Assembly (NCBI GenBank): GCA_903863015.1
Contig: CAIPAI010000029.1
Location: forward strand, 1 to 64,000
Direction of reading: 5' to 3'
Length of the DNA: 64,000 nt
From: an uncultured Actinomycetes bacterium
Lineage (GTDB): Bacteria; Actinomycetota; Actinomycetes; Nanopelagicales; Nanopelagicaceae
Position 1 is the first letter of the stretch. Each line of letters begins with the position of its first letter. A model generated the notes under the pieces. It saw nothing but the letters and a program-made list of their open reading frames with translations, did no database searches and was not told the DNA's origin. The position numbers and the translations under genes are program-made. Below, one piece after another: positions 1 through 15,718 of the stretch.

Positions 1-1
1 C

Positions 2-280
2 ACGAATATGGTGCGCTGGCTCGAAGAGGCTAAAGAAGCTGGATGCTTCGTCGTTGGACTTGATGCAGATGGGGATGTCTCACTTCCCAAATTCGATAAC
101 GGAAGTGATCCGCTTGTGGTTGTGGTGGGAAGCGAAGGAAAGGGATTGGGTCGTTTAGTCAGCGAAACCTGTGATTACATCCTCTCTATCCCGATGTCAG
201 GCGCGACCGAATCTCTCAACGCCGGAATTGCGTCTAGCGTCGTGCTCTATGCCATCAGCCAACAACGCGTGGCTCCTTAA
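2..280 (+). CDS. SpoU/TrmH-family RNA 2'-O-methyltransferase (C-terminal part)
   Basis: This is the C-terminal end (about 92 residues) of a SPOUT-superfamily rRNA/tRNA ribose 2'-O-methyltransferase; the reading frame is open at the left edge, so the gene starts outside the window. The knot motifs are visible: VVGSEGKGL (SPOUT motif 2) and [18 protein letters not shown] (motif 3, binding S-adenosylmethionine). The pattern best fits RlmB/TrmH-type enzymes that methylate a guanosine ribose in 23S rRNA, but without the N-terminal substrate-binding domain the exact target cannot be decided. Its stop overlaps the stop of the convergent membrane-protein gene. Confidence 0.85.
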
Positions 281-1485
281 AAATACTTTTTGAGGAAGCT
301 CGGCACCATCTGTTTTATCCGGCGACGGATTTTCTTTCCCTGAGCAATTGGTGAGACCGCCAAAATTCCATCGGAAGATGCCGGCGATGCAACATGACGA
401 ATGGCTGGCGAAGAGAGATCGAGAGAATCAGCAATGATGTCGATGTTTGCCTTGAGCGAGATCGTGCGCGCCAATTGGTCGGGGTCTGTTTCATCAACTT
501 GATCGATGACCTCGTCGACAAATGCCGAGCCAGCTGCGCGCAATTCATCAGCAATGTCTTCTTTATCTCTGGCGGAATCATCACCGGAGAGTGATTTCAT
601 GCGATCTTTGATCGCAGCACTTGCACTTGCGAGTGCGCGAGCAATTTGTTGTGATGTCGCATCTGTCATTCCAGCATCATCTACCGATGTGTCAAAGAGC
701 GTGCGCGCTATTGAACGAATCTGCACCACAGTATGTTCGGCTGCCACACCACGTGAGTAGAGATCTTCAGCCTCGTCGACTTCTGCAGTAGGGAACCATT
801 TTGCGTATGAGCGAGCCTCCTGGGCTTGCGAACGCACCCCAGGAATTTCCTCAACAAGTAAGCGAGCCTTGGCTAACCAATCGCCGGCCTCTTGTTGGGT
901 GTAACCGTGCGCCACACCCGCAGCCATTTGATCAAGTAGTTCCGATGCTCGTCTACCAACTCGGCCAATTTGATCAATAGTTCTTCCAGCCGGCGTTTTG
1001 GGATGCGCAAAGTACGAGAAAACAATGGCAATACCGACTCCGATTAGGGTGCAGCTCATTCTTCTTATTGCGTTACTCTCACTGAGCCCTGGCCCGATAA
1101 CTATGAGAGCGGTAATCGGCACATTAAAACTAGCGATCTCTCCAAGGTGAATTGCGCGCGAGATGATGGCGCATAACACCACGGTCCCCAGAACTGTGAA
1201 GAAACCGAAACCCAGGAGTGTGGTGGAAAGGAGTGCGGTGCCCGCACCAATAGCGGTACCAAAAATTTGACCAAAGCCTTCACGGACAGATTTGTGGAGC
1301 GAGATCCGCACGGAGAGGGCCGCCGCGATGGCCGCCACCAATCCGCCATTGGCTACGACGAGGTCGCCTACTTCCCAAGCGACACCGGAAGCCAGGGCGG
1401 TGACGAGAGTCTTCTGAACCCAGGGGCGCCGGGAGACCACCAGGGTGACCAGGGATTTCCGGGTTCGCCGCCACCAATTACGCAT
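277..1485 (-). CDS. Aromatic acid exporter (ArAE/FUSC-like) membrane protein
   Basis: A 402-residue membrane protein. The N-terminal ~160 residues hold several hydrophobic segments of the ArAE_1/FUSC type, with a typical beginning (about residues 24-60) in which a conserved [11 protein letters not shown] follows the first membrane hairpin. The C-terminal ~230 residues are soluble and helical, as in cytosolic tails of aromatic-acid exporter family proteins. A role in exporting small aromatic or anionic compounds is inferred from family only. The start ATG has a TACAAT hexamer six bases upstream, suggesting a leaderless transcript. It runs convergently into the SpoU methyltransferase gene with a 4-base overlap of stops. 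Confidence 0.7.
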
Positions 1486-1491
1486 GATTTG

Positions 1492-1497
1492 ATTGTA
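1492..1497 (-). promoter_or_regulatory. -10 hexamer of leaderless ArAE gene
   Basis: TACAAT lies exactly six bases upstream of the ATG at 1485 on the minus strand, which would put the transcription start at the start codon. No Shine-Dalgarno sequence is visible. Confidence 0.55.
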
Positions 1498-1624
1498 GGG
1501 CGGGGATTACGCGCGTGGGATGGATAGCCTCTGCGCCTGGCGGATAAGAACTCTTAAGTAATTTTCCTACCCTCACTCTAAGCAGATTCCCGAACCGCGT
1601 AAGCGGAGTACTTGGAGGTCCTTG

Positions 1625-3097
1625 ATGGGTAAGAAGATCGCAATTGTGGGTGCCGGCTTTGCTGGCCTTGCATCAGCCAAAGTTTTGACCGAGTTCGGTC
1701 ATGATGTTCACGTTTTTGAGAAAGACTCCGAAGTAGGTGGCGTGTGGACGACTTCGCGTCGTTACCCCGGTTTGGGAACGCAGAATGTGCGCAGTACATA
1801 TGCGCTGAGTGATTATCCCTATCCAAAGGGCACCCCCGAGTGGCCAACCGGTGAGCAAGTACAGAAGTACATGGCTGGCTATGTCAATAACTTCAAGTTC
1901 GGCAACAAGATTTCGCTTAACACCGAAGTGAAGAGCGCAAAGCAGAATGCCGATGGTTCTTGGACACTCAACACTTCATCAAATGGTGTAGAAAATACGC
2001 AGAACTTCGACTACCTCATTGTCGCTAATGGCATCTTCTGCGATCCCTTCGTCCCAACATGGGAAGGCGCGGACGCCTTCAAGGCAGCTGGCGGAAAGAT
2101 CATGCACACCGTGGACTTCCATAATCTTGAAGATGTGCGTGGCAAGAACGTTGTCGTGGTTGGTTACGGCAAGTCGTCTTGTGATGTGGCAAATGAAACG
2201 GTGGGTGTAGCCAAGAACACCACGATTGTTGCGCGTCACATCATTTGGAAGGTGCCTAAGAAGTTTAAGAACGTGCTTAATTATAAGATGCTCTTACTTA
2301 CACGCATGGGTGAAGCGCTCTTCCCCTATATCGAGTTAAAAGGCTTTGAAAAGTTCTTGCATGGCAAGGGCAAGAAGGTCAGTGGTGGAATGCTCGGTAG
2401 TGTCCAAGGTGTTATCGAGGGGCAATTTAAGTTAGAGAAGCTCGATCTCCATCCACATAATGGCCTCGACACCATTGTGCGAAGCACCGTCTCGCTTGCG
2501 TCAGATGGATTCTTCGACAAGGTCGAAGCAGGAACCCTCAAGGTTGAACGCGACACTGAGATCGTGCGCATGGAAGCTGGCAAAGTCCACCTTGCTAACG
2601 GTAAGACCGTCGATGCCGATTACATCATTTGCGGTACCGGTTTCCATCAACGCGTCCAATTCCTAGAAGATTCTGTGATGGCACGGATTAACGATGAGCG
2701 CGGGAACTTCCGTCTCTATCGCCAACTACTTCCACTTGATGTTCCAAACCTTGCGTTTAATGGCTATAACTCATCTTTCTTTAGCCAATTGAATGCCGAG
2801 ATGGGCGCTGTCTGGATTGGTGGCTACCTTGCCGGTGCCATCAAACTTCCTCCACATGATGTGATGCTCAAGCACATTGATAAGCGCCTTGCGTGGATGG
2901 AGAAGCGTACGGAGAACAAGCATGCTCGTGGAACAAACATCATTCCATTCTCGGTTCACAACATTGACGAACTGCTCGACGATATGAATTTGAGCATTGG
3001 CGCGATGAAGCGTTTCAACGAATGGTCATTCCCAATCAATCCCAAGAACTACGCGAAGATTGGTCCACAGCTTCGCAAGCGTCTAGGAATCAAGTAA
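1625..3097 (+). CDS. Flavin-containing monooxygenase-like FAD/NAD(P) oxidoreductase
   Basis: A 490-residue flavoprotein of the FMO / class B monooxygenase group. The FAD-binding GxGxxG is at residues 9-14 (GAGFAG) followed by an acidic strand end (VFEKD), and a second dinucleotide-binding motif VVGYGKSSCDVA sits near residues 180-191. The FxGxxxH fingerprint of FMOs and Baeyer-Villiger enzymes is degenerate (MHTVDFHN), so the reaction is uncertain; oxygenation of an N, S or carbonyl group of a small molecule is the family expectation. The ATG at 1625 is preferred over the TTG at 1622 because GGAGG lies six bases before it. It is followed by a strong hairpin and faces an SDR gene. Confidence 0.8.
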   Translation: MGKKIAIVGAGFAGLASAKVLTEFGHDVHVFEKDSEVGGVWTTSRRYPGLGTQNVRSTYALSDYPYPKGTPEWPTGEQVQKYMAGYVNNFKFGNKISLNTEVKSAKQNADGSWTLNTSSNGVENTQNFDYLIVANGIFCDPFVPTWEGADAFKAAGGKIMHTVDFHNLEDVRGKNVVVVGYGKSSCDVANETVGVAKNTTIVARHIIWKVPKKFKNVLNYKMLLLTRMGEALFPYIELKGFEKFLHGKGKKVSGGMLGSVQGVIEGQFKLEKLDLHPHNGLDTIVRSTVSLASDGFFDKVEAGTLKVERDTEIVRMEAGKVHLANGKTVDADYIICGTGFHQRVQFLEDSVMARINDERGNFRLYRQLLPLDVPNLAFNGYNSSFFSQLNAEMGAVWIGGYLAGAIKLPPHDVMLKHIDKRLAWMEKRTENKHARGTNIIPFSVHNIDELLDDMNLSIGAMKRFNEWSFPINPKNYAKIGPQLRKRLGIK

Positions 3098-3115
3098 GAA
3101 ATTTTCAAGGAGGAA

Positions 3116-3151
3116 AAGAAGAGGGGCTCTCATATGAGAGCCCCTCTTCTT
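3116..3151. terminator. Bidirectional hairpin terminator, 36-bp perfect palindrome
   Basis: The 36 bases form a perfect palindrome centred between 3133 and 3134 (core CTCATATGAG), with A-rich and T-rich ends on both sides, between the convergent FMO and SDR genes. It can terminate transcription from either side. Confidence 0.85.
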
Positions 3152-3162
3152 ACTTTTACTAA

Positions 3163-3957
3163 TTACTCCATCAGGAGTGGTATCGCTGGTACCGCTTGCT
3201 CGGGACCCATTGCTGAGTAGCCACCATCGGCAGCCCAATCAGCGCCAGTGACCACAGAAGCCTTATCGCTGCAAAGGAAGGAGATCACATTGGCTACTTC
3301 CTCGGGATCTCCCACGCGTCCGGTGAGATGGAAAGGGGCAGCGACTCGATCTGTTTTTGCGCGATCGCCCTTGGAGAGCATGTCCATGATCGCTGACCAA
3401 GTCCAACCTGGCGAGACAGAATTAACGCGAATTTTGTCAGGTGCATAATCCATAGCCATGTTTTTGGTGAGTTGCACAATCGCAGCTTTACTCACTGGGT
3501 AAGTCCAGCGACCAATCTGAGCAACGCTTGATGAAATGCTGGTGAGGTTCACGATAGCGCCGCCACCTTGTTTAGCCATGTGAGGTCGTACTGCAGCCCC
3601 CAACATTGCGGTACTGGCTACGTTTACGTTCAAAGTATTGAGCCACTGGGCACGGGTGCTATCTGCACCGCCGTCATCGTAAGTGCATGCGAGATTGACG
3701 AGGATGTCGATGTGGCCCCAAGACTTCGCGGCATCGCTGACAACTCTTTCGATGGCGGCATCGTCGGTGATGTCGGCATGTATAAAAGTGGCGCCACTCT
3801 TCTTGGCAGCGGCCGCGCCGGTCTCTTCATTGATCTCAATGATGAGCACTTTGGCGCCGTCAGCCACGAGCGTGCGAGCCACGGCCTCTCCAAAGAGGGT
3901 GCCGCCTCCGGTGACAATTGCGGTCTTTCCAGAGAGTGGATGGGCGGTTGAACTCAT
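3163..3957 (-). CDS. Short-chain dehydrogenase/reductase (SDR)
   Basis: A 264-residue classical SDR with a Rossmann fold. The cofactor motif TGGGTLFG is at residues 16-23, the NNAG element is changed to NLA near residues 88-90, the catalytic serine lies in SISSS (about 140-144), and the YxxxK pair is Y153/K157. The acidic residue at the end of strand 2 (IIEINEE) suggests NAD rather than NADP. Substrate is unknown. Translation starts at an ATG preceded by AAGGAGC. It is divergent from an AraC-family regulator, with a large inverted repeat between them, so that regulator may control it. The adjacent FMO may belong to the same metabolic function, but this is only proximity. Confidence 0.85.
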   Translation of the reverse strand: MSSTAHPLSGKTAIVTGGGTLFGEAVARTLVADGAKVLIIEINEETGAAAAKKSGATFIHADITDDAAIERVVSDAAKSWGHIDILVNLACTYDDGGADSTRAQWLNTLNVNVASTAMLGAAVRPHMAKQGGGAIVNLTSISSSVAQIGRWTYPVSKAAIVQLTKNMAMDYAPDKIRVNSVSPGWTWSAIMDMLSKGDRAKTDRVAAPFHLTGRVGDPEEVANVISFLCSDKASVVTGADWAADGGYSAMGPEQAVPAIPLLME

Positions 3958-4003
3958 AAGGCTCCTTCGGTCTGGGATTGGCTCTGGGAACAGTCAGACG
4001 TTA

Positions 4004-4048
4004 GATAGCCCCGTGCGATTCAGGTGTCCTCGGCACGCACGGGCTATC
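4004..4048. promoter_or_regulatory. Long inverted repeat between SDR and AraC-family genes
   Basis: GATAGCCCCGTGCG (4004-4017) is repeated in inverted orientation as CGCACGGGCTATC (4036-4048), identical except for one extra C, with an 18-base spacer. It lies in the upstream region of the SDR gene and just before the AraC gene, so it may be an operator or an mRNA hairpin in the SDR leader. Confidence 0.5.
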
Positions 4049-4136
4049 CATCTAGCGCACTCTTTGCCAGCCTAACCCCTTGACACCCATTCTGAGCAGG
4101 GCAAACTGGAGCACCTGTCTAGGAAGGAGTGGGGAC

Positions 4137-5114
4137 ATGGCTGCCGTCGCTGAGCTACTGCGCGAACATAATCTCTTCCGTACCCAAAACCTTGATGAAG
4201 CGCGCGAGCAAGTAGCGCGAGTCTTCTGCCCGCATGGATTGACCACTACTTCTGCTGATCAAAAACTAGACACCGTACATAACCGAGTAACTCTCGGCGA
4301 CGTGACTCTCAATTACTTGGATTACGGCGCAGATGTTCATATCACCCCAGGAGAGTTGCACTCCTTCTACCTTATTCAAATGCCACTCGCTGGTAGCGCC
4401 GAAATTCATTCCGGAAAAGAGAGCATCCATTCAGATACCTCGTTGGCATCGATTCCTAATCCACTCGAGAAACTCGACATGGTGTGGCATACAGGAAATC
4501 CGCAACTACTTGTGTACATCAGCCGTATTACATTGGAAGAACGACTTGAAGATTTGATTGGTCGTGAACTCCAGGCGCCCGTCAGATTTGATTTGGGAAT
4601 GGATCTCACCACTCCGCAAGCGCGCAGTTGGCGCACATTGGTCGACACACTTGTCACAGATGTTGATCGCGGCGGGCTCACAATGCACGCGGGAGTGCGC
4701 GATCAATTCCAAGATTTGATCATTAGCGGTTTGTTACTCTCGCAACGCCATAATTACAGCGATTCCATCGGAAGCCGTGTAGAACCAGCAGCACCTCGAA
4801 GTGTGCGCATGGCGATTCAAGCTTGCGAAGCATCACCACAAGAGCCGCTCACCGTCACTGACATGGCGCGCGTTGCTGGCGTGAGTATTCGCAGTTTGCA
4901 AGATGGCTTCAAGAGATATGTGGGTATGAGTCCTACCGAGTACTTGCGAGATGTGCGACTGAATCGAGTACGTGAGGACTTGCTTTCGGAGCGAGCCCAG
5001 AGCACCTCGATCGCCGATATTGCCTTCTCGTGGGGCTTCACGCACTTGGGGCGCTTTGCTAAGACCTATCACGATCGTTTCGGAGAATTACCTTCGGAGA
5101 CACTCCGCCGGTAG
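4137..5114 (+). CDS. AraC-family transcriptional regulator
   Basis: A 325-residue regulator. The N-terminal ~200 residues resemble the AraC-binding-like domain (cupin-like, PF14525 type) that senses small ligands; the last ~100 residues carry the double helix-turn-helix (VTDMARVAGVSIRSLQDGF, then SIADIAFSWGFTHLGRFA) with the typical end YHDRFGELPSETLRR. The ATG at 4137 is chosen because AGGAAGGAG ends seven bases before it; an upstream ATG at 4080 has no such site. It is divergent from the SDR gene and lies upstream of tRNA-Thr and the kynureninase operon, so either aromatic-related unit could be its target. A TTGACA at 4080-4085 may be its -35. Confidence 0.85.
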   Translation: MAAVAELLREHNLFRTQNLDEAREQVARVFCPHGLTTTSADQKLDTVHNRVTLGDVTLNYLDYGADVHITPGELHSFYLIQMPLAGSAEIHSGKESIHSDTSLASIPNPLEKLDMVWHTGNPQLLVYISRITLEERLEDLIGRELQAPVRFDLGMDLTTPQARSWRTLVDTLVTDVDRGGLTMHAGVRDQFQDLIISGLLLSQRHNYSDSIGSRVEPAAPRSVRMAIQACEASPQEPLTVTDMARVAGVSIRSLQDGFKRYVGMSPTEYLRDVRLNRVREDLLSERAQSTSIADIAFSWGFTHLGRFAKTYHDRFGELPSETLRR

Positions 5115-5167
5115 CCAGATTTCACCTCGTTGGCATCCGATGACATACTTACCCCGTTGTACACCGT

Positions 5168-5182
5168 GTCCAGTTTCTGGAC
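5168..5182 (+). terminator. Short hairpin before tRNA-Thr
   Basis: GTCCAG-TTT-CTGGAC forms a perfect 6-bp stem ending four bases before tRNA-Thr and 54 bases after the AraC gene. There is no T-tract, so it could be a weak terminator, a processing signal or an operator. Confidence 0.3.
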
Positions 5183-5185
5183 CAA

Positions 5186-5258
5186 GCCGACCTGGCGCAA
5201 TTGGTAGCGCACCGCACTTGTAATGCGGGGGTTAGGGGTTCGAGTCCCCTGGTCGGCC
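5186..5258 (+). tRNA. tRNA-Thr (anticodon TGT)
   Basis: A 73-base cloverleaf: acceptor GCCGACC pairs with GGTCGGC, D-arm GCGC/GCGC, anticodon stem CCGCA/TGCGG with loop CTTGTAA, T-arm AGGGG-TTCGAGT-CCCCT. The anticodon TGT is at 5219-5221. CCA is not fully encoded. Confidence 0.95.
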
Positions 5259-5296
5259 CCACTTTTCCTTCCTACTCCATATGGCGAAACCTCAGA

Positions 5297-5302
5297 TACG
5301 CT
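5297..5302 (+). promoter_or_regulatory. -10 hexamer of leaderless kynU
   Basis: TACGCT lies seven bases before the kynureninase ATG, with no Shine-Dalgarno sequence, which suggests a leaderless transcript starting the kynurenine operon. Confidence 0.5.
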
Positions 5303-5309
5303 TGCGCCC

Positions 5310-6569
5310 ATGTCTGCCCTGGAACGTAGTTACGCGGAGCATTTAGATCGCGAAGATTCGTTGGCGCATTTTCGTGAGCGCTTTTACATTGCCGATCCTG
5401 AAGTCTGCTATCTCGACGGCAACTCACTCGGACGCCTTCCACTTCATACCATCGACGTCATCAACGAATTAATGCTGAAAGAGTGGGGAGGCGAAGTTGT
5501 TGATGGCTGGCATCACTGGTTAGACGAATCCCAAAGTACTGGCGACTTGATCGGCCGCGCAGCTTTAGGTGCCGCTGCCGGCCAGGTACTTGCCACCGAT
5601 ACAACCTCAGTGAATTTCTACCAACTGGCTACCGCGGCAATTAAGGCGCGGCCAGGTAGAACTACGGTGATCACTGACGAGTCAAACTTTCCGACCGACC
5701 GCTATATCTTGCAAGGATTAGCGAAAGAGCACGGTTTGAATCTCGTCATCATCCCAAACTCGGATGATGAGCTCATCACTTCAGAAAAGTTAAAGCCATT
5801 ACTCAATGACGACGTGGCACTCGTAACTTTCCAGGTCGTGCAATATCGCGCAGGCGCTCGCAACAATGTCAGAGAACTTACGGAGTTAATTCATTCGTGT
5901 GGTGCTATTGCACTCTGGGATGCTTCGCACTCTGTGGGATCGGTTGCGATGAATTATGATGCAGATGGCGTTGATATTTCAGTGGGTTGTACTTACAAAT
6001 ATGGAAATGCTGGGCCTGGAGCACCTGGCTGGCTCTATGTCAGTAAGAAAATGCAATCGGAGTTGCAAGTACCTATCCAGGGATGGTTTGCGCAAGCGAA
6101 TCAATTCGGAATGGGACCTAAGTTTGATCGCGCTGATGGCATCAAGGGATTTCAAATTGCCACACCTCCTATCTTTGGATTACGCAGCATCCAATCTTCA
6201 TTCGGCATGATGGAAGAGGCTGGTATCGCGGCGATTGAAGCCAAGTGCGCCAAGGGAACCGAAATGATGATTGCCCTTTTTGACGGCTGGCTGCGCGAAC
6301 TAGGTTTTGAATTAGGGACTCCACGGGACCCCTCGCGACGCGGTGGCCACGTCTCACTGCTTCATCCAGATGCATTCCAAATATCGGTTGCTATGCGCAC
6401 TTTGGCGAAAGTGATCCCCGATTTCAGAAATCCAAACGCCATCCGCTTAGCGATCTCTCCGCTTCCCACTTCCTATGTCGAAGTGTGGGATGGATTTGCC
6501 CGTCTGCGTGATTTGGTGGCGAGTGGGGAGTTCACAAAGGTGAGTACTTCTGGAGCGAAGGTTCTCTAG
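5310..6569 (+). CDS. kynU: Kynureninase
   Basis: A 419-residue PLP enzyme that cleaves L-kynurenine to anthranilate and alanine in the cytosol. Family hallmarks are the N-terminal YLDGNSLGRLP, the PLP lysine at about K230 in CTYKYGNAGPGAPGW, and the conserved WFA...F.MGPKFDRADGIKGFQIATPPI region. The length matches bacterial kynureninases. The start at 5310 matches family length; the longer open frame would run through the tRNA-Thr gene. Four bases separate it from a 2-aminobenzoate-CoA-ligase-like gene and a formamidase-like gene follows, so the three probably form one operon for using N-formylkynurenine or kynurenine. Confidence 0.92.
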   Translation: MSALERSYAEHLDREDSLAHFRERFYIADPEVCYLDGNSLGRLPLHTIDVINELMLKEWGGEVVDGWHHWLDESQSTGDLIGRAALGAAAGQVLATDTTSVNFYQLATAAIKARPGRTTVITDESNFPTDRYILQGLAKEHGLNLVIIPNSDDELITSEKLKPLLNDDVALVTFQVVQYRAGARNNVRELTELIHSCGAIALWDASHSVGSVAMNYDADGVDISVGCTYKYGNAGPGAPGWLYVSKKMQSELQVPIQGWFAQANQFGMGPKFDRADGIKGFQIATPPIFGLRSIQSSFGMMEEAGIAAIEAKCAKGTEMMIALFDGWLRELGFELGTPRDPSRRGGHVSLLHPDAFQISVAMRTLAKVIPDFRNPNAIRLAISPLPTSYVEVWDGFARLRDLVASGEFTKVSTSGAKVL

Positions 6570-6573
6570 AGAG

Positions 6574-8160
6574 ATGATTCGCTCTGCTCATATCGATACC
6601 TTCACGCGCGACAATTTGCCTCCGCTGGATCTTTGGCCTGAGCTGATCAATATTCCTGCCTATCCGCAACGACTCAACGCCAGCGTGGAATTGCTTGATC
6701 GCACCATTGATTTAGTGGGTCGGGAGAAGATCGCACTCATCGCTCCGGAGGGTGAAGTCACATACGGAGCATTACTCGATCAAGTTAAAGCATTAGCCCG
6801 GTACTTTGAAAGCGCGGGAGTACAAGCGGGCAATCGCGTCCTTTTACGCGGTCCCAACAACGCATCGGTAGTGGCGATCTGGTTTGCCTTGCTTCGCATC
6901 GGCGCTGTGGTGGTTACGACGATCCATTTACAACGCACTGGTGAATTAGAAAAGATCGTTGATATTGCCTCAGTGCAATTTGCTTGTGTGGATCATCGCT
7001 TTACCGAGGATTGGAATGCGGTCACGCACTTCAAGGGCAAAACTTTTGTTTACGGCGCGGGGGATGCTGATGATCTCCTGCAGATCGCGGCAACTCATGC
7101 AGGTGAGCACACACCATGTGATACCTCCTCTGACGATGTAAGCCTGCTGGCTTTCACGTCAGGGTCAACCGGTCTGCCTAAAGCGACGATGCACTTCCAT
7201 CGAGACATTTTGGCAATTGCAGATACGTTTTCGGCCCATGTGTTGCGGCCTTCCAGTGCAGATATCTTCGCCGGTTCGCCTCCGCTCGCATTTACCTTTG
7301 GCCTCGGCGCCCTGGTGATCTTTCCTTTCCGGGTTGGGGCAACCAGTGTGCTTCTCGAGGGAGCACCACCGCCGGTCTTGCTGGAGCAAATCGCGAAACA
7401 TCGAGTCACCACGCTCTTTACGGCTCCCACCGCATACCGAGCGATGCTCTCTCACTTAGAAGAGAAGTCGTTTCCGTCGCTGCACACCTGCGTCTCTGCG
7501 GGAGAACATCTACCGAAGAGCACGTGGGAAGCGTGGAATCGCGCAACAGGCATCCGCATTATTGATGGCATCGGCGCTACCGAGATGCTGCATATCTTTA
7601 TCTCGGCAGCAGGCGATGAAATCATTCCGGGAATGACCGGAAAAGTGGTGCCAGGCTACGAGGCGATAGTTGTCGATGAGGAGTTGCGCGTAGTGGCGGA
7701 CGGCGAGATAGGACGCCTGGCAGTCAAAGGGCCAACTGGATGTCGCTACCTACATGATGACCGCCAGCGCAATTATGTTGAAGGGGGCTGGAATCTCACC
7801 GGCGATCTCTACATCAAACATTCGAACGGTTACTTTCAATACCAATCTCGGTCGGATGACATGATTATTTCGAGTGGCTACAACGTGGCCGCGCCTGAAG
7901 TTGAAAATGCGCTACTGCTCCATCCATCTGTAGCTGAGTGCGCTGTGGTGGGTGTGCCCGACGAAGAGCGCGGAATGGTGGTCGCTGCGTACGTCGTCTT
8001 GAAGAGTGAGTTTGCGGGGAGTGATCAACTGCGCAAAGAACTGCAAGATCACGTTAAAGAGACCATCGTGCCTTTTAAATATCCTAGGGTTTTAGAATTT
8101 GTGGAAACGCTACCTAAAACTACAACGGGAAAACTTCAACGCTTCAGACTCAAATCATGA
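6574..8160 (+). CDS. 2-aminobenzoate-CoA ligase-like acyl-CoA synthetase
   Basis: A 528-residue AMP-forming acid-CoA ligase of the benzoate/2-aminobenzoate-CoA ligase group. The N-terminus (AHIDTFTRDNLPPLDLWPEL) matches that subgroup. The ATP-binding loop TSGSTGLPKATMHFH is near residues 194-208, GIGATEMLHIFIS is the subgroup form of motif A5, NLTGDLY is the hinge-region aspartate motif, and the C-terminal catalytic lysine is in PKTTTGKLQR. Its likely job is to activate the anthranilate produced by kynureninase, encoded four bases upstream, to anthraniloyl-CoA. Benzoate or salicylate are alternative substrates. No oxygenase or reductase for anthraniloyl-CoA is encoded next to it. Confidence 0.82.
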   Translation: MIRSAHIDTFTRDNLPPLDLWPELINIPAYPQRLNASVELLDRTIDLVGREKIALIAPEGEVTYGALLDQVKALARYFESAGVQAGNRVLLRGPNNASVVAIWFALLRIGAVVVTTIHLQRTGELEKIVDIASVQFACVDHRFTEDWNAVTHFKGKTFVYGAGDADDLLQIAATHAGEHTPCDTSSDDVSLLAFTSGSTGLPKATMHFHRDILAIADTFSAHVLRPSSADIFAGSPPLAFTFGLGALVIFPFRVGATSVLLEGAPPPVLLEQIAKHRVTTLFTAPTAYRAMLSHLEEKSFPSLHTCVSAGEHLPKSTWEAWNRATGIRIIDGIGATEMLHIFISAAGDEIIPGMTGKVVPGYEAIVVDEELRVVADGEIGRLAVKGPTGCRYLHDDRQRNYVEGGWNLTGDLYIKHSNGYFQYQSRSDDMIISSGYNVAAPEVENALLLHPSVAECAVVGVPDEERGMVVAAYVVLKSEFAGSDQLRKELQDHVKETIVPFKYPRVLEFVETLPKTTTGKLQRFRLKS

Positions 8161-8843
8161 GTGAGGATCGATCAGTATTTGAACTCCCCACGCGCCAACC
8201 TGATTCCACATTGGTGTACGGCGAAGACCCCTCGCAGATCGCAGATATCTTTGGTTCGCCAAAATCACCTGCACTGGTGCTCATCCATGGCGGTTACTGG
8301 CGACCGCAATATGATCGCGTGCACGCTCGCCCATTAGCAGGCGCCCTCGCTGACGCGGGCTACTTTGTCATTTCATTGGAGTATCGCCGCATACCCGGTA
8401 ATCCCGATGCCATGGTGGCCGATGTGGCGGCGGCTATCGCCGCGATTCCGGCAGAATCAGTAACACTTATTGGTCATTCGGCTGGTGGACATTTAGCGCT
8501 CTGGGCGGCTGCCAACGTTTCGAAGGTAAGAAAGGTAGTAGCCCTGGCTCCGGTCTCTGATCTGCAAATGACGGAGGATCTTCACCTCGATGAAGGCGCA
8601 GCAACTGATTTCCTCGGATGCCCAGCTAGCACGAGAACAGATTTAGATCCGATGTATCTCGAGTATGGAGATGTAGAAGTACTCGTTGTACAAGGAGATT
8701 GCGATATCCGAGTTCCGGTAGAGATGAATCGTAAATTCGCAATGCATCAACCACAGGTTAAATACCAGGAGCATCCCCGCATTGGACACTTCGAATTGAT
8801 TGATCCGAACAAATCAATAGTGCTTGGACTGCTGAACTCCTAA
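8157..8843 (+). CDS. Kynurenine-formamidase-like alpha/beta hydrolase
   Basis: A 228-residue alpha/beta hydrolase. The oxyanion motif HGGYW (about 44-48) is the form seen in eukaryotic-type arylformamidases; the nucleophile is in GHSAGG (about 106-111), the acid in GDCDIRVP (about 180-187) and the base in RIGHFELID near the C-terminus. With kynureninase in the same operon it most likely hydrolyses N-formylkynurenine to kynurenine and formate. A general carboxylesterase is the alternative. Its ATG overlaps the stop of the CoA ligase (ATGA), implying translational coupling. Its 3' end overlaps the convergent HAD gene by 30 bases. Confidence 0.75.
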   Translation: MSEDRSVFELPTRQPDSTLVYGEDPSQIADIFGSPKSPALVLIHGGYWRPQYDRVHARPLAGALADAGYFVISLEYRRIPGNPDAMVADVAAAIAAIPAESVTLIGHSAGGHLALWAAANVSKVRKVVALAPVSDLQMTEDLHLDEGAATDFLGCPASTRTDLDPMYLEYGDVEVLVVQGDCDIRVPVEMNRKFAMHQPQVKYQEHPRIGHFELIDPNKSIVLGLLNS

Positions 8844-9608
8844 GTAGTCGGAATTCGCTTTGATGGAACTTCGTGTCCAAGGATGCGCTTCGTGAGAAAG
8901 TACGTCTGTAAGCATGCTGGGGAGCGAGTGTGATGGATCGTAAGAATTAGTAGTAATGACACCCCAATTATTCTTCAGAGCAATTCTTTTGAGCTCCTTA
9001 TTGGCATTGACAACTGATGCCTTTCCTACCATCGCGAGCATAGGGAGATCGTTGATTGAATCCGAATATGCATAGCTGGCATCAAGGTCAAAATTCTCCC
9101 TCTCAGCGAGTCTCCTGATTGCCTCAGCTTTCATCGGCCCACGCATAAGCCCACCTTGCAAGAAACCGGTGTACACACCATCTCGAACTTCCGGCAACGT
9201 GGCGAGTGCGCCCGACATGCCTAATTTATTGGCAATCGGTAGTGCCATCTCTATGGGACTGGCAGTCACCAGCCAGGTGCTCTGCCCTTCCTTTTGATGT
9301 CGCTTGATTCGCTCAACTGATTCAGGAATAAGTACTTGATCGAGAAAATCTAAGACGACGCGGTCGCAAAGGAACTCCATCTCGGTGGCGCTATAACCAG
9401 CGACGATATTCAACGCCCTGTCTGAGACAAATCGAGTGGTTGACTTTGATTCGGTCTTGCTCCATACATACTTGAACTCACGTAGTGCGAAGCGAGCCAA
9501 GTCTCGACGGTTGAGAAATCCTTGCCCTACAAGCCGTCGGGCGAAATGAAATAATGAAGAACCACGTATCACGGTATTGTCTAAATCGAAGAACGCGGCT
9601 GATCTCAT
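8814..9608 (-). CDS. HAD-superfamily (subfamily IB) phosphatase
   Basis: A 264-residue HAD-IB hydrolase, related to SerB-like phosphatases. Motif I is FFDLDNTVI (D8 and D10), motif II is WLVTASP, the conserved lysine is in MRGPMKAEAIRRL, and motif III/IV is AYSDSINDLPML. Family members act on phosphoserine or lysophospholipid-type phosphates; the substrate here is unknown. The ATG at 9608 is preferred over an upstream start because motif I then falls at the usual distance and TACCCT lies six bases upstream. It is divergent from the glycosyltransferase operon. Confidence 0.8.
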   Translation of the reverse strand: MRSAAFFDLDNTVIRGSSLFHFARRLVGQGFLNRRDLARFALREFKYVWSKTESKSTTRFVSDRALNIVAGYSATEMEFLCDRVVLDFLDQVLIPESVERIKRHQKEGQSTWLVTASPIEMALPIANKLGMSGALATLPEVRDGVYTGFLQGGLMRGPMKAEAIRRLAERENFDLDASYAYSDSINDLPMLAMVGKASVVNANKELKRIALKNNWGVITTNSYDPSHSLPSMLTDVLSHEAHPWTRSSIKANSDYLGVQQSKHY

Positions 9609-9614
9609 ACTCTT

Positions 9615-9620
9615 AGGGTA
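9615..9620 (-). promoter_or_regulatory. -10 hexamer of leaderless HAD gene
   Basis: TACCCT on the minus strand lies six bases before the ATG at 9608; no ribosome binding site is visible. Confidence 0.55.
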
Positions 9621-9739
9621 GAGGCGAGGTACGCATTGATCCGCCAAAAGCATGACTAATCACATTTGTTAACCTTAAGTTCAAATTTGATCCATCTATT
9701 GGACAGCAATTGCGAACACAGTCTTGCTCTTCTATATAC

Positions 9740-10873
9740 ATGCGAATCCTTATTGTCGCCGAGTCATTTTTGCCTCGCACGAATGGCGTAGTGAATACCG
9801 TCATGAGAGTTTCACGATTTCTCAAATCTTTGGGTCACGATGTGCTCATCCTGGCCCCTGGCCCAGGGGCAGTGAAGACGTTTGAGGGGATTCCTATTAT
9901 GCGGACTGCCTCAGTGGTCGTTCCAGGGATACAAGATACCGATGTCGCTTTCGTGAGCACCAGTCAGATTGCTCGAGTTATCCGGAGTTTCAAACCAGAT
10001 GTGGTACACCTTGCCTCGCCATTTATTCTTGGTGAGAGAGCAATTAAGGCTGCTCGCCAAGAAGGCGTGCCAACTGTTGCGGTATTTCAAACTGACGTCG
10101 CCGGATTTGCTGTCCACTATGGATTGGCATTTGCAATTCGTGCGGCAGATGCATGGGTAGGCCGAATTCATCGCATGGTGGACCTAAATCTAGTTCCGTG
10201 CGGTGATATGGATAACTATCTCCGAGGCCTCGGTGTCGCCAACATTTCTCGTTGGACTCGAGGGGTCGACCATTCAATCTTTTCACCGGAACACCGCTCG
10301 GAAGAGCTACGTACTGCTTGGGGCGCAGGAGTAGGGACTCGGGTGATTGGTTTTGTGGGCAGGCTCGCCCCGGAAAAGAATGTTCACAAACTTGCATTGC
10401 TCGACAAACTTCCACATACACAGGTGGTTGTTGTAGGCGAGGGATCGGAGCGGTCCACCTTACAACGGCTGATGCCGAGAGCCATCTTCACGGGTGCGCT
10501 TCACGGAGCCAAACTGGGAGAGGCGATGGCTTCGCTAGACATCTTGGTGGCACCAGGCGAGAAGGAGACCTTCTGCCAGGTAATTCAAGAAGGCATGGCC
10601 TCTGGCGTTACGGTTATCGCACCCGCGGTAGGTGGGCCTAAGGATTTAATTAAACATGGCGTCACTGGATTTTTATACCAGGCTGGCAAAGACGATCAAT
10701 TGGTACAGAATGTTGAGTTGGCACTCAGCAATGAATCCTTGAGTCGAAATCTGAGTCTTGCAGGGTTACGTTCGGTGGAATCTAGAACTTGGCACTCGGT
10801 TAACAGCGAACTTCTCGATCACTATGAGAATGTGATTTCAATGGCCGCTGCTAAACGCATGGCGGTCGCCTAA
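9740..10873 (+). CDS. GT4-family glycosyltransferase, MgtA-like mannosyltransferase
   Basis: A 377-residue GT-B glycosyltransferase of family GT4. The N-terminus MRILIVAESFLPRTNGVVN closely resembles actinobacterial GDP-mannose-dependent alpha-mannosyltransferases (MgtA type) that build glycolipids on the cytosolic membrane face. The nucleotide-sugar site is marked by GFVGRLAPEKN and by the EX7E-like APGEKETFCQVIQEGMA. The start at 9740 is chosen from the family N-terminus; an in-frame TTG at 9710 is possible. The gene overlaps the next glycosyltransferase (TAATG) and belongs to a GT-GT-SGNH operon. The sugar donor and acceptor are inferred. Confidence 0.75.
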   Translation: MRILIVAESFLPRTNGVVNTVMRVSRFLKSLGHDVLILAPGPGAVKTFEGIPIMRTASVVVPGIQDTDVAFVSTSQIARVIRSFKPDVVHLASPFILGERAIKAARQEGVPTVAVFQTDVAGFAVHYGLAFAIRAADAWVGRIHRMVDLNLVPCGDMDNYLRGLGVANISRWTRGVDHSIFSPEHRSEELRTAWGAGVGTRVIGFVGRLAPEKNVHKLALLDKLPHTQVVVVGEGSERSTLQRLMPRAIFTGALHGAKLGEAMASLDILVAPGEKETFCQVIQEGMASGVTVIAPAVGGPKDLIKHGVTGFLYQAGKDDQLVQNVELALSNESLSRNLSLAGLRSVESRTWHSVNSELLDHYENVISMAAAKRMAVA

Positions 10874-11997
10874 TGGCCACCGTCGTGCACATTGCAAATT
10901 TCTATGGTCCCAAAAGCGGAGGATTACGTACCGCGATGAATGCCGTAGCGGCGGAGTACTCCAAGCAGGGTCATCACACGACGCTTATCGTCCCAGGAGC
11001 AAAAGATTCGTGTACGAAAACCGACTTTGGCCATCTTTATGAAATCGCATCGCCGGTCGTACCCTTCAGTGGTGGTTATCGTTTCATTCTGCGAAGACGG
11101 AGAGTGGCTAAACTCATCGAGGCCTTTGCCCCAGACGTGTTAGAAATTTCTGACAGAACTTCGCTTCTTAGACTTGCCAAAGCTCAACGTGAGCGAGGTG
11201 GTGTCGTATCAATGTGGGCGCATGAAAGAGTCGATGGTGTGCTCGCCTCCTTCCTCCCTGGTAGCGCAAAGCGGTGGGAAAAGATCGCTGACATGTGGAA
11301 TGCACGCAGCGCTCGCCTTGTGGATCATGTTATTTCTACAACGGAATATGCCGGTGGGGAGTTCAGGAGAATAGGAGTTGAGCCGTATTTGGTTCCGCTT
11401 GGCGTTGATCTCGGGCTCTTTGCTCCGTGGAAACGCGACGACCTCTGGAAAGAAAACTTCGAAGCAATACCCTTACTGCTCTTATGCAGCCGACTCTCTC
11501 GCGAGAAGCATCCTCGTCGAGCCGTTGAAGTATTGCGAGACCTAAGGCGTCGAGGTCTCAGGGCTCACTTAGTCATCGTCGGCGACGGTCCGCTCCGGAG
11601 CGAACTCGAGAAGGCGGCCATCGGTTTGCCTGTGACATTTCTGGGCTTTATCTCCGATCGGGCAGTGGTGGCTCGCATCATGGCATCGGTGGATGTTCTT
11701 CTTGCCCCAGGTCCGATTGAAACCTTCGGATTGGCCGCGCTTGAATCGCTGGCGTGTGGAACCCCGGTGGTGGCTGCAAAGAGTAGTGCGATTGGAGAGA
11801 TTTTGGGAGGAGCGGGTATCTGCGCCGGAGATTCAGTGGTGCAGTGGAGTGGGGCAATCATCGACATGCTGGCACGTAAAGAAGGACCCCGCAGGGCGGC
11901 GGCGCGCAGCCGAGCAGAGCAGTTCGACTGGAGCAAAACAGTTAGTCGCCTGACCCATATTTACCACATTCAACAGGAGGTTGAAGATGTCGCATGA
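10873..11997 (+). CDS. GT4-family glycosyltransferase
   Basis: A 374-residue GT-B enzyme, the second glycosyltransferase of the operon. The glycine-rich N-terminal loop (GPKSGGLRTAMNAVA), the LCSRLSREKHPRRAVE strand and the C-terminal EX7E motif (ETFGLAALESLACGTPVVA) define family GT4. It probably adds a sugar to the same envelope glycan or glycolipid as its upstream partner. The first ATG overlaps the upstream stop codon (TAATG), and its own 3' end overlaps the SGNH gene by 11 bases, so all three genes are likely co-translated. The specificity cannot be read from the sequence. Confidence 0.78.
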   Translation: MATVVHIANFYGPKSGGLRTAMNAVAAEYSKQGHHTTLIVPGAKDSCTKTDFGHLYEIASPVVPFSGGYRFILRRRRVAKLIEAFAPDVLEISDRTSLLRLAKAQRERGGVVSMWAHERVDGVLASFLPGSAKRWEKIADMWNARSARLVDHVISTTEYAGGEFRRIGVEPYLVPLGVDLGLFAPWKRDDLWKENFEAIPLLLLCSRLSREKHPRRAVEVLRDLRRRGLRAHLVIVGDGPLRSELEKAAIGLPVTFLGFISDRAVVARIMASVDVLLAPGPIETFGLAALESLACGTPVVAAKSSAIGEILGGAGICAGDSVVQWSGAIIDMLARKEGPRRAAARSRAEQFDWSKTVSRLTHIYHIQQEVEDVA

Positions 11998-12817
11998 TCG
12001 GGTGATTGCGCTTGGAGATTCGGTGGCATTTGGAGTTGGAGATATTGGTAAGAACTTCATAGGTCCGGGATGGGGAGCGCGAGTTGCGCACCAAATCGAT
12101 GCAGCGAAGTTTCTTAATCTTTCAAATCTAGGTGCACGAGTCCGACAATTATCACAAGATCAACTTCCAGCGGCGATTGCCTACAGGCCTACCATCTCTA
12201 TCATCAGTATCGGCGGAAATGACATTCTTCGGTCGCGGTTTAATCCGGCCGAAGTTGAACATCACCTTGAGAAGGTTGTGATCTCGCTCAAAATAATCGG
12301 TAGTGAAGTGGTGTTACTTAAAATTCCCGATCCAAAAAAGACTGCCCCAGGTCCGCGAATGTTGCGGGAGGCCCTTGGCGAGCGGCGATTTGAGCTTTCA
12401 GAACTTATCAATCGAGTCGGCGCATCTACGAACACGCCGATAATTCAGGTGCCAGATGAAGAGGCAAAAGCTAGGCGAGAAATCTGGCATATTGACCGGA
12501 TGCATCCGAGTGCCCAAGGGCATCAACTACTCGCTGATAAGACGCTGTTGGCTCTAGGGCGTCGCGCGGTACGAGACAGTATTTCTAGTGTTCAGAATAT
12601 TGGGCACAAGGAAGCTGCTAAATGGTTCGCAGCGGCTGCGACCATGTGGTTCGTAAAACGCAGCGTTGATCTAATTCCAACCCTCCTCTGGTTAGGACTC
12701 AAACTCCGTTTCCAACAAATCTTCATTCACCGAATAGTTAAGAGAAATTCTCTTGTCTACCTGAGATCTCCTGAAAGCTCAGGAGAAATTTCGATAGAGA
12801 AACGACATGCTGCCTAA
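11987..12817 (+). CDS. SGNH/GDSL-family hydrolase with basic hydrophobic tail
   Basis: A 276-residue SGNH hydrolase. Block I is IALGDSVAFGVG (serine nucleophile), block III is ISIGGNDILR, and block V is DRMHPSAQGHQLL. No signal peptide is visible, so it is probably cytosolic or membrane-associated. The last ~70 residues are unusual: aromatic, basic and amphipathic (KWFAAAATMWFVKRS..., LLWLGLKLRF), possibly a membrane-surface anchor. The ATG at 11987 is chosen because AGGAGG lies six bases upstream, not the TTG at 11981. It follows two glycosyltransferases, so it may deacylate or edit their glycolipid product. Confidence 0.8.
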   Translation: MSHDRVIALGDSVAFGVGDIGKNFIGPGWGARVAHQIDAAKFLNLSNLGARVRQLSQDQLPAAIAYRPTISIISIGGNDILRSRFNPAEVEHHLEKVVISLKIIGSEVVLLKIPDPKKTAPGPRMLREALGERRFELSELINRVGASTNTPIIQVPDEEAKARREIWHIDRMHPSAQGHQLLADKTLLALGRRAVRDSISSVQNIGHKEAAKWFAAAATMWFVKRSVDLIPTLLWLGLKLRFQQIFIHRIVKRNSLVYLRSPESSGEISIEKRHAA

Positions 12818-14238
12818 TCTCGCTCTTGCGTTTTAATTCGTCGACGCCCTAGAAGTACGTGGCCTAAGAAGCCAATGAGGAGTGCAGCAATGATTCCAAT
12901 GTTGGCATAGGCCCATGGGCCATTCTTTCCGCCGATAATCCAAAGGAAGTAACCCTGCCAGCCGAGCCAGCTAGCGAAAGTATTAGTTACTAGTCCCCAA
13001 CCTACTAACGTTCCGAGCGCCATCAATCCGATACTGGTGAAATTCCACGCGCCGTATCTCCCCTTTTCATCAAAGAGCGAAACCTCGTCATAGTCATTTC
13101 GACGCATGAGGACATCGGCGACAAAGATCGCAGACCAGACGGCAATAGGTACGCCGAGTGTGATGAGGAAACCTTGGAATGGTCCGAAGAAATCGGGCGC
13201 AAACCAGACGATGTAAATGGTGCCGAGCAGCATCACTATGCCATCGACGCTGGCAGCCTGATGACGTTTGATCGGAACCCCAAGTGAGACGAGGGTGATC
13301 CCGGATGAGTAGAGATCAAGAATTGCCCCGCCAATCAGGCCCAGGATGGCCACAATTGCAAAGGGGAGCAGGTACCAGGTGGGCAGCAAGGTGGTGAGCG
13401 CACCGATTGGATCAGCGGCTATCTTGCCGGCAAGGTCGCTGCTACTTCCGGCTAAGAGTGCGCCATAGATAACAAGAATGACGGGAACGAGTGAAGCACC
13501 AAAGATTGTCCAAGCGATCACGCCCCGGCCGCTCACAGAACGCGGAAGATATCTTGAGTAATCTGCTGCGCTATTGACCCACCCAAGACCAATGCCGGTG
13601 ATGGCGAAAATCATCGCGCCGATAAACCCTTGGACGCTTCCATTCTTCATGGTGGCAATAGCGTGCCAATCAACATGATCAATAGTGAAAGCGATGTATC
13701 CGATGGTGAGTAACGCGGTAGCCGACGTAATCCAGATTTGCATCTTCATGATCACTCTGAAGCCAAGGACGCCGCCGAAGATGGTGAGCGAGGCTGCAAT
13801 GATAAAACCGAGCACGTAAGCGAAGTTCTCGTTAATGCTCGTGAAGTGAGTGAGCACAGTTTTAGTAGCAAGTGTGGCAAGTGCTACGAGCACCGTCTCC
13901 CATCCGACGAAAATCAAATAGGAGAGAATGCCGGGAACGATATTTCCGCGTACGCCGAATGAGGCACGGGAGAGCGTCATCGTTGGAGCCGAAGATCGCT
14001 TTCCGGCCAAAGAACTCACTCCCACGAGCGCGAATGAGAGAACGGTTCCGACTAGCCCGGCAAATGTGGCCTGCCAGAAAGAGATACCAAATCCCAGAAG
14101 AAAGGAGCCATAAGAAAGCGCAAGGAGCGAGACATTGGCCGCACACCATGGCCAGAAGAGCGAGCGTGCACTGCCGCGACGTTCGGTTTCATTAATGATG
14201 TTGATGCCATTTTGTTCAATACGTTCAGATCTAGCCAT
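12814..14238 (-). CDS. NCS1-family nucleobase permease (cytosine/purine type)
   Basis: A 474-residue membrane protein with about 12 hydrophobic segments, in the nucleobase:cation symporter-1 family. The diagnostic loop SAPTMTLSRASFGVRGN (about residues 83-99) and GLGWVNSAADYSRYLPR are present. It should take up cytosine, a purine, or related compounds such as allantoin or hydantoins; the sequence does not decide which. A strong AGAGGAGGGG precedes the ATG. It is divergent from the secreted DMFase-like gene, and its 3' end meets the SGNH gene with a 4-base overlap. Confidence 0.85.
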   Translation of the reverse strand: MARSERIEQNGINIINETERRGSARSLFWPWCAANVSLLALSYGSFLLGFGISFWQATFAGLVGTVLSFALVGVSSLAGKRSSAPTMTLSRASFGVRGNIVPGILSYLIFVGWETVLVALATLATKTVLTHFTSINENFAYVLGFIIAASLTIFGGVLGFRVIMKMQIWITSATALLTIGYIAFTIDHVDWHAIATMKNGSVQGFIGAMIFAITGIGLGWVNSAADYSRYLPRSVSGRGVIAWTIFGASLVPVILVIYGALLAGSSSDLAGKIAADPIGALTTLLPTWYLLPFAIVAILGLIGGAILDLYSSGITLVSLGVPIKRHQAASVDGIVMLLGTIYIVWFAPDFFGPFQGFLITLGVPIAVWSAIFVADVLMRRNDYDEVSLFDEKGRYGAWNFTSIGLMALGTLVGWGLVTNTFASWLGWQGYFLWIIGGKNGPWAYANIGIIAALLIGFLGHVLLGRRRIKTQERD

Positions 14239-14315
14239 GCGCTCCCCTCCTCTTTGTAATCTCGATGCTCCGGATGCTACAGAAATATCGATTCTGAAGA
14301 ATCACAAGGGATCAC

Positions 14316-14321
14316 TATACT
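14316..14321 (+). promoter_or_regulatory. Probable -10 (TATACT) of the DMFase-like gene
   Basis: TATACT lies eight bases before the ATG at 14330, so the message has no or almost no leader. An inverted repeat GATTC-TGAA-GAATC (14290-14303) lies just upstream, between the two divergent genes. Confidence 0.45.
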
Positions 14322-14329
14322 TTCGCACC

Positions 14330-15715
14330 ATGCGCCGCATCGGTTTATTCATCGTGATGGCGCTTTTTGCTCAGAATCTATTCTTCTCATCTGAAGCGTC
14401 AGCATCGGCAGAGCTTTGGAAGATAAATAGTAAGAACTTCTCCTCCGATACAGCTGGATTTGCCACTCCTAATTCAGTTCTACCTGGGGAATTAGTTGAC
14501 CTCTACGTGACCTGCCCCAAGGGAGACTTCACCGTCATCGCCTATCGCATGGGCTATTACGAAGGAAGTGAGGCGCAAGAGTATTGGCGTTCGGATTCTT
14601 TGAAGTGCATTCAGCAAAGCGCCCAGAGCATCGATCCCAAAACTTCTATGAGTGAGAGTCATTGGAAAGTAAGTGCTTCCCTTGACACTTCGATTCTCGA
14701 TCCAGGTTTCTATTTGATCAAGATTGTGGCCTCAGGTGGACATGAATCCTTTATGCCACTAGTTATTAGGGACGCTGATCTCACGTCGCGCGTCGTGCTT
14801 TCGATTCCGACGCTGACTAGCTTGGCGTATAACAAGTGGAAAGGCGCATCTGCGTACCGCGGGGAAAAGGGATTTGTTGATCGCGCTCGCGTACTTTCAT
14901 TTGATCGCCCGCTCAGTTTGGGATTTGGCAGCGGGAAGTATTTGAATTACGTTCATCCGCTCTTGGTAGCAGCAGATAAAAGCGGTATTAATCCGTCATA
15001 TGTGACTGATGTAGATGTGGCTTCGAATCCCGGAATGCTTACGGGTGCAGCTGCATATGTATCGGGCGGACATGATGAGTATTGGACCAGTGAAGAGCGG
15101 ACGTCGGTGATAAAGGCTCGCAATACTGGAACAAATTTGCTCTTCTTCGGTGCCAACGTTTCATATTGGCGAGTGCGGCTCTCAGCATCTCCACTCGGTG
15201 CGAATCGTCGCATGGAGATCTATAAATCAGCCGCCACTGATCCGCAGAAGCAGGATCCCACCGTCCGATTTAGGGACTCGAATGCTCCCGAGGGCGATCT
15301 CACTGGGCAGAGTTACAACTGTTTCCCCGCGACCGGGCTCTTTACTGTGAGCAAACCACAAGCATTTGTTTTTGCTGGAAGTGGCGCATCTTTGGGGAGT
15401 CAGTATTCGGGAATAATCGGCCCCGAAGTAGATCGCGTAGCTTCGGTGAGTGCCAAGACTGGTCCGAGGGAAGCTTTAGCAACATCAACTGTGACGTGTG
15501 GAATCGATAAGAAATCCACGAGCACGATGATTTACGCGGTTGCCGGTAGCGGTGCTGGGACTATTTCGGTGGGCACCATGAAATGGGTGGAGCGAGGCCT
15601 CACAAAGGCAGTTCCTGAGCGCACGTATCAATTCGTGGCCAAAGTGACCGCAAATATTCTGCTTGAGGCTGCGCAAGGACCACTCGGCGCGCGCTACCCC
15701 CTTAACCAGGGGTAG
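14330..15715 (+). CDS. Secreted N,N-dimethylformamidase-beta-like protein
   Basis: A 461-residue protein with an N-terminal signal peptide (about residues 1-25, ending SSEASASA). The body matches the large domain seen in N,N-dimethylformamidase beta subunits (glutamine-amidotransferase-like fold); conserved-looking stretches are PTLTSLAYNKWKG, VDRARVLSFDRPL, YVSGGHDEYWT and FFGANVSYWR. An extracellular hydrolase role is inferred, and formamide is not an established substrate for these standalone proteins. The start at 14330 is chosen because it gives a clean signal peptide and has TATACT eight bases upstream. It sits opposite an NCS1 permease and ends inside the -10 element of the next gene. 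Confidence 0.7.
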   Translation: MRRIGLFIVMALFAQNLFFSSEASASAELWKINSKNFSSDTAGFATPNSVLPGELVDLYVTCPKGDFTVIAYRMGYYEGSEAQEYWRSDSLKCIQQSAQSIDPKTSMSESHWKVSASLDTSILDPGFYLIKIVASGGHESFMPLVIRDADLTSRVVLSIPTLTSLAYNKWKGASAYRGEKGFVDRARVLSFDRPLSLGFGSGKYLNYVHPLLVAADKSGINPSYVTDVDVASNPGMLTGAAAYVSGGHDEYWTSEERTSVIKARNTGTNLLFFGANVSYWRVRLSASPLGANRRMEIYKSAATDPQKQDPTVRFRDSNAPEGDLTGQSYNCFPATGLFTVSKPQAFVFAGSGASLGSQYSGIIGPEVDRVASVSAKTGPREALATSTVTCGIDKKSTSTMIYAVAGSGAGTISVGTMKWVERGLTKAVPERTYQFVAKVTANILLEAAQGPLGARYPLNQG

Positions 15716-15718
15716 CCT
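15713..15718 (+). promoter_or_regulatory. -10 hexamer built on a stop codon
   Basis: TAGCCT lies six bases before the ATG at 15725; its first three bases are the TAG stop of the preceding gene. Confidence 0.5.

Follow-up and report, generated by a model that had tools for sequence, protein, structure and literature searches.

A 64,000-nucleotide stretch of DNA (the window; contig C29 of a 1.94-Mb actinobacterial genome in 65 contigs) carries a three-gene operon for a kynureninase, a coenzyme A (CoA) ligase and an alpha/beta-hydrolase. We put at roughly 88% the probability that this operon is the formylkynurenine-to-anthraniloyl-CoA segment (steps 2-4) of a complete aerobic catabolism of L-tryptophan via CoA thioesters. 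A homologue of tryptophan 2,3-dioxygenase (TDO) on contig C61 would convert tryptophan to N-formylkynurenine, from which the hydrolase would remove the formyl group; kynureninase would then yield anthranilate and alanine, and the ligase would turn anthranilate into anthraniloyl-CoA at the expense of ATP. An anthraniloyl-/salicylyl-CoA monooxygenase/reductase (ACMR) on contig C16 would hydroxylate and dearomatise the ring, leaving the subsequent deamination, ring opening and oxidation to RidA and other enzymes of the gene island around it. Sequence comparison is the basis for assigning the three operon enzymes and for recognising homologues of TDO and ACMR, and substrate use and flux would follow from it. 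What looks like an orphan operon would thereby belong to a complete route of tryptophan catabolism in an actinobacterium with a small genome, probably of a freshwater type. The operon comprises:

5310..6569, + strand: kynureninase (KynU), converting kynurenine to anthranilate and alanine, predicted from KYNU_C and an alignment to 1qz9

6574..8160, + strand: anthranilate (2-aminobenzoate)-CoA ligase, predicted from identity to an assayed ligase and from a tree

8157..8843, + strand: alpha/beta-hydrolase kynurenine formamidase, predicted from motifs, gene neighbourhoods and a ligase-hydrolase junction shared with relatives

The first two genes are 4 bases apart and the last two overlap by 4 bases (ATGA), as the original prediction, made from the letters of the window alone, had described. 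It began the region at 5297, which lies 13 bases 5' of the likely kynU start and out of frame; the gene layout itself stands. The proteins are 419 (counted from the ATG at 5310), 528 and 228 amino acids long. The start at 5310 is preferred over a longer open reading frame from 5223, because the latter would overlap a tRNA-Thr gene (5186-5261) and because the kynU orthologues of genomes G110 and G059 begin at the position equivalent to 5310. Order and spacing are retained in G110, which belongs to the same genus, and order is retained in G059 (over two contigs), G065 and G077, indicating that the arrangement is not due to chance. The tRNA-Thr(TGT) gene at 5186-5261 sits between a regulator gene and kynU, 48 bases from the kynU start, and may have a transcript or promoter region in common with the operon.

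The kynureninase matches Pfam KYNU_C with 76 bits (cut-off 27) and aligns over its full length to the Pseudomonas kynureninase 1qz9 (261 bits). It scores 222.8 bits against TIGR01814 (cut-off 246.4), the next family being SufS with 46.7. In the 1qz9 alignment it retains the pyridoxal phosphate-lysine motif CTYKY and a tryptophan at the W64 position, which we take to mark enzymes for kynurenine and not for 3-hydroxykynurenine.

The ligase consists of an AMP-binding fold (PF00501, 228 bits) and a C-terminal domain (PF13193, 90 bits). It scores 344.6 bits against the benzoate-CoA ligase family TIGR02262, under the cut-off of 375.25. Among solved structures it matches the anthranilate-CoA ligase AuaEII best (4wv3, 295 bits), with lower scores for the benzoate ligases 2v7b (265) and 4eat (234). 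It is 52.9% identical to ARUE_113p00220, encoded on plasmid pAL1 of Arthrobacter sp. Rue61a, a protein assayed as an anthranilate-CoA ligase in extracts of E. coli (PMC3534580). With each of the two abm ligases in Aromatoleum evansii it shares 52.5% identity, and with the next paralogues 33%. Those two stand out in the A. evansii genome with 573 and 568 bits, while the eight other paralogues reach at most 298 (298 and 274 being the next); this is in line with the duplicated cluster reportedly described by Schuehle et al. in 2001. In a ligase tree, the window ligase falls into a clade with the pAL1 and A. evansii ligases (SH-aLRT 99), the benzoate ligases 2v7b and 4eat form part of another clade, and AuaEII lies outside the catabolic clade. 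By homology, the ligase is assigned as a catabolic anthranilate (2-aminobenzoate)-CoA ligase. A grouping with benzoate ligases, which the original prediction had named as a refuting outcome, did not arise.

The hydrolase carries an HGGYW oxyanion motif and a GHSAGG nucleophile motif, and alignment to 9x6a offers the aspartate of QGDCD and the histidine of RIGHFE as the remaining candidates for a catalytic triad. Across a sample of 296 genomes from the phylum, its homologues adjoin kynU and/or TDO in seven of the 14 other, unrelated actinobacterial loci, one of which (L220) shows the order TDO-hydrolase-kynU. These features argue for a kynurenine formamidase of the alpha/beta-hydrolase type, and the naming of actinobacterial HGGYW hydrolases adjoining kynureninase as kynurenine formamidases gains support. 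The three enzyme assignments of the original prediction and its order of chemistry are thus backed by homology, the ligase tree and gene neighbourhoods.

That prediction also held that neither a TDO nor an anthraniloyl-CoA monooxygenase lies nearby, and drew from their absence that the cell may scavenge kynurenines or make a product from anthraniloyl-CoA. The former is correct for the open reading frames of positions 1-16000 of the window but not for the genome, where the search that the prediction called for found both, with matches on C61 and C16 instead of the window's contig, and the latter loses its ground. The TDO homologue on C61 (L003:7067-7786) is short (239 amino acids) and divergent, passes the Pfam gathering score (105.8 versus 34.9 bits) and, aligned to 2nw7, keeps the distal and proximal histidines equivalent to H55 and H240, which we take to be the catalytic ones. 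Across 24 genomes searched, with TDO families confirmed by sequence where regions were retrieved, the divergent (weak-scoring) and the canonical (strong-scoring) TDO never occur in the same genome. This mutual exclusion supports a replacement; in several genera of the family the short form seems to stand in for the canonical one. The ACMR on C16 is a full-length bifunctional fusion of a flavin monooxygenase and an old-yellow-enzyme domain (NF006101, 1166 bits, cut-off 1078), 59.7% identical to ARUE_113p00230. The island around it also holds RidA (C16:41041-41421), a thiolase, a ring hydrolase, short-chain dehydrogenases/reductases (SDRs) and a B12-dependent mutase.

In five relatives (G029, G072, G061, G091 and G142), a single island unites the ligase, ACMR, RidA, a MenB/BadI-like hydrolase, a thiolase and two SDRs with NDP-forming and AMP-forming acyl-CoA ligases, B12 mutase subunits and a MeaB GTPase, and further holds an IOR-like pair and an isatin-hydrolase homologue; no acyl-CoA dehydrogenase was recognised in it. 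The TDO homologue lies within the island in G029, G072, G061 and G091, kynU in G029, G072 and G061, and PrpB/PrpC/PrpD-like genes in G029, G072, G061 and G091. In two relatives that bear the ligase, G022 and G142, kynU shares an operon with a canonical TDO. The window genome has the set spread out: the operon is on C29, most other genes are on C16, TDO is on C61 and the small subunit of the mutase is on C51. Among 151 genomes of the order, the ligase occurs in 14, ACMR in 15 and both in 12 (Fisher 2e-13, which ignores relatedness). An island-type mutase (540-575 bits) occurs in 17 of the 151, and 14 of these have ACMR (Fisher 5e-16, likewise ignoring relatedness), so that 14 of the 15 ACMR-bearing genomes carry it. 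The island crotonase matches MenB/BadI families best (342, 324 and 301 bits, all under their cut-offs), and the thiolase is PcaF-like, of the 3-oxoadipyl-CoA type (382-387 bits, under the pcaF cut-offs).

These linked downstream genes suggest a vitamin-B12 step that is new to the anthraniloyl-CoA pathway of tryptophan. We tentatively propose, at clearly less than even odds, a lower pathway via a B12-dependent 4-oxopimelyl-CoA mutase that ends in succinyl-CoA and propionyl-CoA. RidA would convert 2-amino-5-oxocyclohexenecarbonyl-CoA to 2,5-dioxocyclohexanecarbonyl-CoA, whose ring the MenB/BadI-like hydrolase would open hydrolytically to 4-oxopimelyl-CoA. The mutase would shift the thioester to C3, giving 2-methyl-3-oxoadipyl-CoA, which the 3-oxoadipyl-CoA-type thiolase would split into succinyl-CoA and propionyl-CoA, the latter entering the methylcitrate cycle or being handled by methylmalonyl-CoA mutase (MCM). 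The island mutase is closest among solved structures to 2-hydroxyisobutyryl-CoA mutase (434 bits; MCM 372), which we count in support together with its MCM-like tyrosine and arginine positions. An outlet for propionyl-CoA, either PrpB or a second mutase, is present in 14 of 15 ACMR-bearing genomes versus seven of 14 controls (Fisher 0.014), which lends weak support. Rue61a cells on anthranilate contain anthraniloyl-CoA and a C7H8O4 CoA ester, tentatively cyclohexanedione-carboxyl-CoA (PMC3534580), and we count this ester in favour of the proposal. No independent linkage of mutase and ACMR was found in other phyla, and the Arthrobacter neighbourhood lacks an annotated mutase within the 34 kb of pAL1 examined.

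For this lower part of the route, an even chance must be granted to a different role for the mutase, as an ordinary MCM or an enzyme of the aminophenylsuccinyl-CoA type known from indoleacetate degradation, unrelated to ring cleavage after ACMR. Its tyrosine and arginine, at positions that we take from the MCM literature to be the substrate-binding sites, are as in MCM in eight of eight islands, and the island's isatin hydrolase and IOR-like pair hint at indole metabolism. An ordinary MCM is, however, harder to reconcile with another mutase on C51 that scores higher (742 versus 573 bits) and with G029, G061, G072 and G091, which pair the island mutase with methylcitrate-cycle genes and would so make an MCM for propionate redundant. 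The anaerobic indoleacetate route uses a molybdenum hydroxylase and a hydantoinase, neither of which was recognised in the island, and the co-occurrence of mutase and ACMR in 14 of 15 genomes also counts against a role unrelated to ring cleavage. If the 4-oxopimelyl-CoA proposal is true, it adds a new carbon-skeleton reaction to the B12 mutase family and completes a lower pathway for anthraniloyl-CoA; at present it supplies gene-level candidates for the steps after ACMR, of which the literature searched gave no worked-out description.

The C51 mutase was rejected as a complete MCM, being a large subunit without a B12 domain. In other phyla, the only mutase match near an ACMR, that of Ramlibacter (L101), was discounted, since its 718-residue frame is as long as a usual single-chain MCM. 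Thiolase and SDR matches in Ramlibacter were likewise discounted, as we read their size and order as those of the polyhydroxybutyrate genes phaA/phaB. On C51 (G000:C51:10262-25357), the large subunit of the second B12 mutase lies about 13 kb from the one strong small subunit that the genome yielded.

With regard to the operon itself, scavenging of external kynurenine or formylkynurenine, or of these compounds from photo-oxidised tryptophan, in a cell without its own TDO would explain why TDO is neither in nor near the operon and why the genome's homologue is divergent. That homologue nonetheless has the catalytic histidines and shares an island with ACMR and ligase in G029, G061, G072 and G091, and in G022 and G142 a canonical TDO stands in the kynU operon itself, which makes scavenging improbable; uptake of kynurenine may still be an extra source beside the TDO route. 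Still less probable is a role of anthraniloyl-CoA in secondary metabolism, for instance as a quinolone precursor, of the kind served by AuaEII or PqsA. Although AuaEII is the best solved-structure match, the ligase shares 35.5% identity with it versus 53% with catabolic ligases, the tree separates them, no ketosynthase or PKS-type family appeared among the operon-side genes scanned, and the genome has a full ACMR. In NCBIfam the C16 enzyme is named salicylyl-CoA 5-hydroxylase, which invites the equally remote reading that salicylate or benzoate is the substrate of the ligase and the monooxygenase, kynureninase being there by accident; against this reading stand the linkage of RidA, kynU, formamidase and TDO and the assayed anthranilate ligase in the ligase clade.

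The tryptophan route thus remains by far the best explanation of the operon, and several points must be set against it. The kynureninase falls short of its NCBIfam cut-off by 24 bits and the ligase by 31, and the C61 TDO homologue reaches 139 bits against TIGR03036 (cut-off 390.7) and could use another indole. The hydrolase is weakly similar to the Drosophila kynurenine formamidase 4e11 (33 bits) and nearer to the "carboxylesterase" 9x6a (97 bits). Lastly, the three parts of the route sit on three contigs in the window genome.

Comparison with known systems shows where the route differs from them. Of the 77 ACMR loci outside the window's group, 56 show a ligase match (350 bits or more) and 60 show RidA in the retrieved flank; five have kynU, four of these with the ligase. 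Neighbourhoods of ligase, ACMR and RidA occur in dozens of loci, chiefly of Burkholderiales, with TDO/kynU inside them in L124 and L129-L131, and on Roseivivax pTHAF40_a kynA lies immediately 5' of the ligase. Neighbourhoods of high-GC loci rest on tblastn, longest-ORF calling failing there, and the crotonase class in proteobacterial loci other than Roseivivax is a matter of tblastn similarity. Tryptophan-fed anthraniloyl-CoA clusters are therefore already in the databases (Burkholderiales, Roseivivax), and the upper pathway is of a known kind. The difference is the conserved downstream set of MenB/BadI-like hydrolase, 3-oxoadipyl-CoA-type thiolase and B12-dependent mutase. A full-text literature search found no paper on the exact gene combination.

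The abm pathway of Azoarcus/Aromatoleum evansii is similar in ligase (52.5%), ACMR (51% for the window genome's own, 66% for that of its relatives), RidA (40%) and SDR, whereas here one operon combines the ligase with kynureninase and formamidase. The proteobacterial abm-type set is incomplete here, with ligase, ACMR and RidA present and a MenB/BadI-like crotonase instead of PRK08258. The Roseivivax pTHAF40_a cluster serves as our proteobacterial reference; where the island has the hydrolase, thiolase and B12 mutase, this cluster encodes an enoyl-CoA hydratase of the PRK08258 type (480 bits) along with an acyl-CoA dehydrogenase. Plasmid pAL1 has the nearest characterised actinobacterial ligase and ACMR, with RidA and PaaX-type regulators, yet it is fed by quinaldine, not kynurenine, and is flanked by genes for a fumarylacetoacetate-hydrolase-family protein, a cupin and a thioesterase. 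The bacterial kynurenine-anthranilate module (TDO, formamidase, kynureninase) comprises the same three activities, L220 providing the order, but here the formamidase is of the alpha/beta-hydrolase and not the cyclase type (KynB), and a CoA ligase is joined to it. AuaEII and PqsA of secondary metabolism share the ligase reaction, and AuaEII differs in identity and tree position as given above.

ACMR was apparently swapped by horizontal transfer. The ACMR of the window's genus falls into a clade with those of pAL1 and Rhodococcus (support 100), while the other seven members of the family in the tree nest beside Massilia within Burkholderiales (support 96-100). The two types (L007:10374-12740 and L069:1780-4176) are 49% identical and occupy corresponding positions in the island.

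Upstream of the operon lie three further genes:

1622..3097, + strand: flavin-containing monooxygenase (PF00743, 143.7 bits)

3163..3957, - strand: SDR of the PRK08265 subfamily (NF006121, 392.6 bits, cut-off 294), divergent from the regulator

4080..5114, + strand: AraC-family regulator, AndR-like (NF041686 AndR, 184 bits, cut-off 350; related to AndR, not called AndR)

This trio is kept in G059 and G110, and in G142 it stands beside the island. The regulator, an orthologue of which lies at the island edge in G142 and near the monooxygenase in L142, probably governs the locus. The SDR has a 63% identical orthologue in L142, beside a StyA-like oxygenase, an isatin hydrolase homologue and the monooxygenase, and is possibly a dehydrogenase of an indole/isatin branch. 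In this Pseudoduganella locus (L142:10764-12854), relatives of SDR and regulator lie by the StyA-like oxygenase (235 bits, cut-off 550), the isatin hydrolase homologue and ACMR, a neighbourhood that suggests a branch from indole to isatin. A cyclase-family protein on C16 was rejected as a KynB formamidase, being closest to isatin hydrolase (285 bits). This isatin hydrolase homologue (L007:3759-4532 on G000:C16; 5nmp, 285 bits) adjoins the IOR-like pair, which might oxidise isatinate (2-aminophenylglyoxylate) directly to anthraniloyl-CoA as a second entry point. An IOR-like pair likewise lies near ACMR in A. evansii (L159).

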